Positions 3,187 through 53,920 of a stretch of 64,000 nucleotides of DNA are shown here, in pieces (the first letter of the stretch is position 1; the number at the start of each line of letters is the position of its first letter). This DNA comes from Rhodoluna sp. (GTDB lineage: Bacteria; Actinomycetota; Actinomycetes; Actinomycetales; Microbacteriaceae): positions 124,001-188,000 of the forward strand of contig JAHEBZ010000002.1 in assembly GCA_024641985.1 (NCBI GenBank), read 5' to 3'. A program made the position numbers and the translations under genes. The notes under the pieces were generated by a model. The model was not told the DNA's origin and did not search any database. It saw only the letters and a program-made list of their open reading frames with translations.

Positions 3187-3516
3187 ATGACTACTACAAA
3201 GCCAACAACTTCAACCCGTAAGCCTGCAGCTCGACCTGCCACCACTCGTGCTGCAGCTCGCCCGGCAACTACTCGTGCTGCAGCTACAAAGGCAGCAGTT
3301 GTTATTGCCCCGGCTGCGCCGGATTACACCAAAACATATAAATTGCTAACTGGCATCGACAATTCAGAATTTTGCGGCAAGGTTCGCCTGCACCTAGAAA
3401 ATGGCTATTCGTTGCACGGTTCACCAACCATGGCCTTCAACGGCAAAGACATCATTGTTGGCCAGGCGGTTACCAAGCCAGCACCAAAGAAAAAGGCCAA
3501 GTCAAAAAAGAAGTAA
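3187..3516 (+). CDS. DUF1737-like protein with Ala/Thr/Arg-rich N-terminal and Lys-rich C-terminal tails
   Basis: Core YKLLTGIDNSEFCGKVRLHLENGYSLHGSPTMAFNGKDIIVGQAV resembles DUF1737; low-complexity tails on both sides. Confidence 0.7.
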   Translation: MTTTKPTTSTRKPAARPATTRAAARPATTRAAATKAAVVIAPAAPDYTKTYKLLTGIDNSEFCGKVRLHLENGYSLHGSPTMAFNGKDIIVGQAVTKPAPKKKAKSKKK

Positions 3517-52815: not shown

Positions 52816-53676
52816 ATGACATCAAACCAGAGCAAGCCAACCCGTTCAGAGCAGCGCGAAATCGCAAGAGCTAAGGCGCGCGAAGTGCGCGATCAGCAGC
52901 AAAAAGGCGCTCGCCGCAAGAAGCTCGGCATTCAAGTTGGTCTGGGTGTTGTGATTCTTGGCATTGCCACAGCTATTACCTTTGCGATCTCGAGCGGCAC
53001 CAACAGCAACGCTGGCAACCTAACCCCAGCAAATTTCTCGTTCAACGATGGCATAAAAATCGGCACGAACCTAGAGGCTTTCACACCAACTTCTACACCT
53101 TCGCCTGCGCCAAGTGCGGGTTCGGCCCCGATTCCAAACATTGCGATTTATCTTGATTACCAGTGCCCGGTTTGTCAGGCGTTCGAGGTGCCTAACCAGT
53201 CTCAAATTGAGAGCTGGGTAAAGGCGGGCCTTGCAACCCTCGAGCTGCACCCAATTTCATTCTTAGATACACGCGGTTCGCTCAACGAATATTCGAGCAG
53301 GGCAGCCAACGCGGCAATCTGTGTAGCCGAAAACTCGCCTAACAACTTCTTTGCCTACAACTCGTGGCTATTTGAGAACCAGCCAGCCGAGGCCACCTAT
53401 GGCCCCGAGAATGATGCACTGATTGAGGGCGCCAAGAAGCTTGGTGTTTCTAACTTTGAGCAGATCTCAACTTGTATCAAAGAAAAGTCATATGCCAATT
53501 GGATTTCCACCACCACCACCAAGGCGCTCAGTGAAAATGTGCCTGGCACCAAGTTGAAAGTAGAAGGAACTCCGTTCATTCTGGTCAACGGTCAGCCATA
53601 CACCTGGACAACTGGCGAAGAGCTGATCAACCCAGCTCGTTTCGCCCAGTTCAAAGACAGCGTTGTAAACAACTAA
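52816..53676 (+). CDS. Membrane-anchored DsbA-family thioredoxin-like protein
   Basis: N-terminal TM; YLDYQCPVCQAFEVPNQ CPVC motif; EGTPFILVNGQPY. Confidence 0.88.
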   Translation: MTSNQSKPTRSEQREIARAKAREVRDQQQKGARRKKLGIQVGLGVVILGIATAITFAISSGTNSNAGNLTPANFSFNDGIKIGTNLEAFTPTSTPSPAPSAGSAPIPNIAIYLDYQCPVCQAFEVPNQSQIESWVKAGLATLELHPISFLDTRGSLNEYSSRAANAAICVAENSPNNFFAYNSWLFENQPAEATYGPENDALIEGAKKLGVSNFEQISTCIKEKSYANWISTTTTKALSENVPGTKLKVEGTPFILVNGQPYTWTTGEELINPARFAQFKDSVVNN

Positions 53677-53690
53677 CTTGCAGGTATGCA

Positions 53691-53720
53691 AAAACCCCAG
53701 AGGAAACTCTGGGGTTTTTT
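53691..53720 (+). terminator. Intrinsic terminator after the DsbA-like gene
   Basis: aaaaccccagag-gaaa-ctctggggtttttt. Confidence 0.93.
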
Positions 53721-53721
53721 G

Positions 53722-53857
53722 TTTGAGCCGACTAGCAAAGACTGCGAGGCAGTCTTTGAATGTCCCCTAGGCAATTAAAAAATTTGAGCCGACTAGCAAA
53801 GACTGCGAGGCAGTCTTTGAATGTCCCCTAGGCAATTAAAAAATTTGAGCCGACTAG
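53722..53857. repeat. 61-bp perfect tandem repeat (2 copies plus a 14-bp third start inside tRNA-Thr) containing tRNA 3'-end copies
   Basis: Unit tttgagccgactagcaaagactgcgaggcagtctttgaatgtcccctaggcaattaaaaaa at 53722-53782 and 53783-53843; partial tttgagccgactag at 53844-53857. Confidence 0.95.
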
Positions 53858-53920
53858 GGGACTTGAACCCCTAACCCCCGTATTACAAGTACGGTGCGCT
53901 GCCAATTGCGCCAAGTCGGC
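53848..53920 (-). tRNA. tRNA-Thr (anticodon TGT)
   Basis: Reverse complement GCCGACTTGGCGCAATTGGCAGCGCACCGTACTTGTAATACGGGGGTTAGGGGTTCAAGTCCCCTAGTCGGCT; loop CTTGTAA. Confidence 0.96.

Follow-up and report, generated by a model that had tools for sequence, protein, structure and literature searches.

An array of 61-bp units with direct and inverted copies of the tRNA 3' end behind tRNA-Thr(TGT) in Rhodoluna

An intact tRNA-Thr(TGT) gene lies on the minus strand at 53847–53920 (ARAGORN; Rfam tRNA, 66.9 bits) of the window, the 64-kb stretch of DNA that we analysed from a freshwater Rhodoluna sp. (Microbacteriaceae) genome of 1.38 Mb in 6 contigs (the source genome, G000). On its downstream side, a 61-bp tandem array abuts and overlaps the 3' end of this gene: TRF places a repeat of period 61 at 53722–53857, with 2.2 copies, 100% matches and 0% indels. 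This confirms the first-pass annotation, which had read the array as two 61-bp units and a third, partial unit formed by the tRNA 3' end. The sole other TRF array in the window is a 27-bp repeat (2.3 copies) at 3224–3285. Beyond the array, sequence and folding indicate a strong, bidirectional terminator-like hairpin, AAAAACCCCAGAG-GAAA-CTCTGGGGTTTTTT (53690–53720), which is common to the tRNA gene and a convergent plus-strand ORF of 286 aa (52816–53676), DsbA/thioredoxin-like by eye and with orthologues in the related genomes G058 and G059.

The array is built from direct copies of the tRNA 3' end (D) and inverted tRNA pieces (I), all on the minus strand and delimited from sequence and TRF. 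The first direct copy, D1, is the end of the tRNA itself with its trailer, CTAGTCGGCTCAAA, and forms the partial third repeat copy (53844–53857). It is followed by the proximal unit B (53783–53843), which consists of a linker (53832–53843), an inverted piece (53823–53831), a hairpin (53797–53819) and a direct copy (53783–53796), and then by the distal unit A (53722–53782) with its own linker (53771–53782), inverted piece (53762–53770), hairpin (53736–53758) and direct copy (53722–53735), the last of which adjoins the original trailer. An inverted copy thus stands between two direct copies. Written in the direction of the position numbers, the three direct copies, including the tRNA end and trailer, read TTTGAGCCGACTAG, the two hairpins CAAAGACTGC-GAG-GCAGTCTTTG, with a perfect 10-bp stem, and the two inverted pieces GTCCCCTAG; each full unit also holds an A6 tract. 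All parts named in the first-pass annotation were recovered in place. In the sense of the tRNA, a unit runs from D (CTAGTCGGCTCAAA) through an AT-rich linker (TTTTTTAATTG) to I (CCTAGGGGAC, which contains the reverse complement of the tRNA's GTCCCCTAG), then ATT and the perfect hairpin CAAAGACTGC-CTC-GCAGTCTTTG, and on to the next D.

Could the array be a product of assembly or of chance? Judged from the sequences, an assembly artefact, whether a collapsed or an invented duplication, is unlikely: the relative G059 carries the unit once and an array of like form occurs behind tRNA-Met in G019. Against dinucleotide shuffles of the insert, both the inverted piece (p=0.007) and the fold (p=0.020) exceed expectation, and these values, together with the recovery of the unit in the independently assembled G059, show that the array is more than chance. 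A dispersed repeat element was rejected, since a genome-wide search of G000 found no other good copy of the trailer. A known RNA family was rejected as well: only the tRNA scores above the Rfam gathering threshold at the locus, and weak sub-threshold hits, such as BSnc120, were ignored.

Among relatives with a matching tRNA-Thr locus, G059 is the only one with the same element, which is kept in 2 of the 67 Rhodoluna genomes. In G037 and G058 there is no insertion and the terminator directly follows the tRNA. Compared with these two genomes, the last D of the source array abuts the original trailer, so the unit was inserted between tRNA and trailer and the displaced tRNA 3' end is the one joined to the original trailer; this also sets the polarity of unit A. 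The first-pass annotation had proposed to check relatives for the hairpin and the inverted piece, and G059 keeps both in its one unit, the hairpin with one compensated pair change (GACTGC/GCAGTC to GACCGC/GCGGTC). Inverted piece and hairpin are identical between G000 and G059 at 32/37 positions (binomial p ~4e-6 at 0.5 and 4e-4 at 0.6), whereas the flanking genes are 33–56% identical at fourfold sites. The G059 linker, CTCTTTTATTT, is identical in both of its own copies, unlike the linker of G000; linkers therefore match within but not between the two genomes. The tRNA itself could homogenise the part that resembles it, which leaves the hairpin, in which 1 of 10 pairs changed, as moderate, independent evidence for constraint and suggests that this hairpin is moderately constrained. 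Matches to msiK RNA also occur on the tRNA-Thr contigs of G059 and G036 (L073:2540–2601 and L074:653–710).

Similar arrangements recur behind other tRNA genes. A trailer scan found copies of the tRNA's own 3' end within 300 nt downstream at 17 of 342 distinct tRNA loci with at least 200 nt of downstream sequence, after an 18th (Arg-ACG in L255, a 12-nt match at 299 nt) was set aside as probable chance. The set was mainly Rhodoluna: many or most tRNAs of G000, G059, G058, G001, G006, G002, G020 and G019, the Thr and Leu loci of the remaining Rhodoluna genomes, and a few loci from other genera. The full D-I-hairpin-D layout, a pattern defined after it was seen, occurs at tRNA-Thr in G000 and G059 and also at Met, Val, Leu and Ala tRNAs in Rhodoluna, each time with the sequence of its own tRNA. 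Behind tRNA-Met, G058 carries AACGGGACTT, GAAACTCGTC-CTC-GACGAGTTTC and GCACGCCCCAC, and G019 has a tandem array like that of the source genome, with a 64-bp unit followed by an assembly gap. Behind tRNA-Val, G059 has a 13-nt exact inverted piece, GAAAATGCGC-TGTC-GCGCATTTTC and a 24-nt copy, and G020 a short inverted piece. The layout is also complete at tRNA-Ala in G059 and at tRNA-Leu in G000, G058 and G059 (CTAGTGGG with CCCACTAG, CCAGTGGG with CCCACTGG), where the inverted piece tracks the tRNA's own change between G000 and G058/G059. The hairpins at Thr, Met (two genomes) and Val (two genomes) have a common A3/T3 base, and 4 of these 5 have a CTC or TGTC loop. Outside Rhodoluna, in G167 from another Microbacteriaceae genus, tRNA-Thr is followed by an array of 81-bp repeats that includes an inverted T-arm piece and a hairpin; no copy of at least 12 nt was found at 20 further tRNA-Thr loci of the family.

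Cassette copies are mostly 13–31 nt long, start mostly at tRNA position 49–67 and lie 25–112 nt downstream, with one at 256; at loci with that much flank, no copies occur between 300 and 1500 nt. No clear inverted piece accompanies 8 of the 17 direct copies, among them Thr in G017, G035 and G036 and Arg in three genomes, and such copies (Thr in G035, G017, G036 and G013; Arg in G001, G019 and G058) may be plain duplications. Inverted-only copies lie just beyond a terminator-like hairpin at Thr in G022 and G023 and at Arg in G006; from their sequence, they look like the expected product of a single fold-back.

The inverted pieces are associated with the direct copies. An inverted match score of at least 8 is found in 9 of 17 trailers with a direct copy vs 19 of 328 without (Fisher p=6e-7; 345 trailers of at least 100 nt, in a test framed after the pattern was seen and with some loci sharing ancestry); the inverted-only copies at Thr in G022 and G023 and at Arg in G006 are among these 19. 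At ten loci, the inverted match between insert and tRNA exceeds that of dinucleotide shuffles (Fisher p=1e-6; 6 of 10 individually p<0.02), the inserts fold more strongly than their shuffles (p=7e-7) and further direct matches are weakly enriched (p=0.02); these statistics treat the loci as independent, and some are related by descent.

A similar layout is found in E. coli K-12, where three 178-bp units lie downstream of tyrV, each with AATCCTTCCCCCACCACCA (direct) and GGGGAAGGAT (inverted) and with hairpins between. As in the source genome, these tyrT/tyrV repeats follow the tRNA immediately and in tandem, and every unit repeats the tRNA 3' end in direct orientation, with an inverted T-arm/acceptor piece and hairpins between the copies. 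In contrast, the unit is 178 bp rather than 61 bp and there is no sequence similarity, so that the likeness is one of layout alone; E. coli, with its 3 units, also has an annotated RNA (RttR/rtT) and an ORF (tpr). No rtT match was found at the source locus in Rfam up to E=5, and thus we do not claim the array as a member of the rtT family. To our knowledge, the E. coli tyrT repeats have been known for decades without an accepted origin. Our literature searches retrieved neither a description of such repeats in Rhodoluna nor a paper on rtT RNA.

What is the mechanism of array formation? We favour, with middling confidence, a model in which the tRNA's own 3' end was duplicated by fold-back and the product was then amplified in tandem. 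The strand under synthesis during replication would pass the tRNA end and turn back at a short palindrome just beyond it; part of the T-arm and acceptor would then be copied in reverse, giving I. A second turn, at a further hairpin, would let the 3' end be copied forwards again, giving D2, after which synthesis would continue into the original trailer and terminator. With direct repeats now on both sides, the 61-bp unit could be amplified in tandem by slippage or unequal exchange between D copies, a process that would also keep linkers alike within a genome. Since the tRNA is intact, the change would be tolerated, and because the array precedes the terminator, it would be transcribed as the tRNA trailer.

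Two template switches at palindromes flanking the tRNA end, plus amplification, are the simplest account of a D-I-D structure that is specific to its tRNA and joined to the trailer. First-turn palindromes that include the tRNA end are found in G167 (GGCTC-TTGTGA-GAGCC) and G035 (GGCTC-TGTAAA-GAGCC); in the source array, the 10-bp hairpin marks the I–D2 turn and the D1–I turn has only a short AT-rich palindrome. Short inverted templated insertions made by fold-back have been described from experiments in yeast (PMC11724301), and inverted triplications have been modelled (PMC4689423). The array resembles fold-back or tandem inversion duplications in having two direct copies around an inverted one; the palindromes expected at the turns are clear in G167 and G035 and less so in the source array. 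It differs in that the segment is 9–30 nt long and always at a tRNA 3' end, and in that no tRNA sequence can be recognised in the hairpin stems, so that the model explains the second turn incompletely. The same layout in independent arrays, behind different tRNA genes and in separate lineages, suggests that tRNA ends share a mutational route, and the recurrence at several tRNAs, in G167 and in E. coli points to a recurring copying error rather than the scar of a virus.

The first-pass annotation had proposed repeated integration and excision at a tRNA att site, which would leave an element remnant made of two att copies and short element DNA. The site itself is compatible with this: tRNA-Thr(TGT) is a true att site elsewhere in Microbacteriaceae, and the junction of D2 with the original trailer has the polarity of tRNA-site integration. 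In other genera of the family, integrative elements or prophage of 5.9, 14.8 and 26 kb use the same tRNA, with a tRNA copy 5.9 kb downstream in G110 (L470; integrase-like ORF), 14.8 kb downstream in G169 (L471; integrase-like and tape-measure-like ORFs) and ~26 kb away in G133 (L472–L473); the integrase-like (tyrosine-recombinase-like) and tape-measure-like ORFs, in the two elements that were examined for ORFs, were named by eye. These att sites share with the array a displaced tRNA 3' end adjoining the original trailer, but differ from it in distance, copy length and start position: their copies are 33–40 nt long, start at ~34–42 and, on inspection, have no inverted piece or hairpin alongside, whereas the array has both of these and no element. 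Further, every cassette is short and none of intermediate size, up to 1.5 kb, was seen; integrase or element genes were found neither at the source locus nor in close relatives, only in other genera. A phage att origin was rejected after IMG/VR pattern scans yielded no contig with the tRNA end in a non-coding context, that is, outside apparent coding sequence. We thus regard an integration scar as quite improbable, and the word scar suits the array only loosely, as the mark of a rearrangement. Any displaced tRNA 3' end is usually taken for an integration scar, and the D-I-D layout offers a concrete way to tell fold-back products from such scars. A small non-autonomous mobile element that targets tRNA 3' ends and is recognised by its hairpin would explain the common A3/T3 bases of the Thr, Met and Val hairpins, the CTC or TGTC loops and the similar length and position of the inserts. 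We consider it very improbable, as the trailer has no other good copy in its own genome, the stems otherwise differ, no transposase or RNA guide was seen and every insert carries the sequence of the tRNA that it follows.

Alternatively, the cassette may be kept for its RNA. In a functional trailer of the tyrT/rtT type, each unit of the read-through precursor could be released as a small structured RNA with a tRNA-like 3' end, and a regulatory or processing function of these RNAs would maintain the cassette. Consistent with this, RttR in E. coli is annotated from +8 to +178 after tyrV, with its end at precisely the CCA of the first copy downstream; the G000/G059 conservation with its compensated pair and the inverted piece that follows the tRNA's change at tRNA-Leu would also fit. 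Yet the element is kept at tRNA-Thr in just two genomes, apparent conservation can result from homogenisation, whether by the tRNA or between hairpin arms, and the predicted alternative fold is independent of the inverted piece. We therefore find such a trailer RNA somewhat doubtful, although, by analogy, an rtT-like product or role is possible for the array. A broader version, in which a recurrent cassette of direct tail, inverted T-arm, hairpin and direct tail behind bacterial tRNAs is selected for rtT-like RNAs or alternative tRNA 3' ends, seems unlikely; if true, E. coli tyrT would belong to a widespread class that has as yet no name. Under the fold-back reading, the hairpin would be moderately constrained, possibly via an effect on 3' processing as in E. 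coli tyrT, but its conservation, with the common A3/T3 bases and CTC/TGTC loops, counts against that reading, as it hints at selection or a common element.

The trailer had also been suggested to misfold the tRNA or to terminate transcription. In predicted folds of the full precursor, the downstream copy does pair with the 5' acceptor strand, and the inverted piece with the first 3' end. However, in this calculation, which ignores co-transcriptional folding, shuffled inserts give mean acceptor pairing of 0.92–0.98 vs 0.95–1.00 observed, with Arg in G001 as an exception; the misfold is therefore no evidence for a designed switch, and an anti-tRNA or decoy switch drawn from minimum-energy folds was rejected. 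As for a terminator role, no T tract directly follows the hairpin of the unit, and the strong terminator-like hairpin lies beyond the array.

Other features were noted around these tRNA genes. Upstream of tRNA-Thr(TGT) in G048:C7, an insertion of 3.5 kb (L326:1384–4936) includes an ORF for a reverse transcriptase (RVT_1, E=8.5e-19) and a second copy of the tRNA's promoter region with its first ~26 nt. In G000:C4 (L328:2107–5167), a tyrosine integrase (427 aa) and an Mrr_cat endonuclease lie beside tRNA-Tyr in a probable defence island; the 10 kb read contained no further 3' end of tRNA-Tyr. The tRNA-Leu(TAA) trailers of 7 Rhodoluna genomes (L206–L210, L213, L216; in the source genome from G000:C3:225984 onward) hold a conserved, structured-looking element after the terminator, with a GGGYGAGAA loop, then GGGGCCCCAATTTATTGGGGCGGGG and a T-arm-like TGAGAGTCC or TTCGAGTCC, that matches no Rfam family. 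Directly after tRNA-Leu(TAA), G058 and G059 carry TPP riboswitches (L207:1732–1837 and L208:979–1084).
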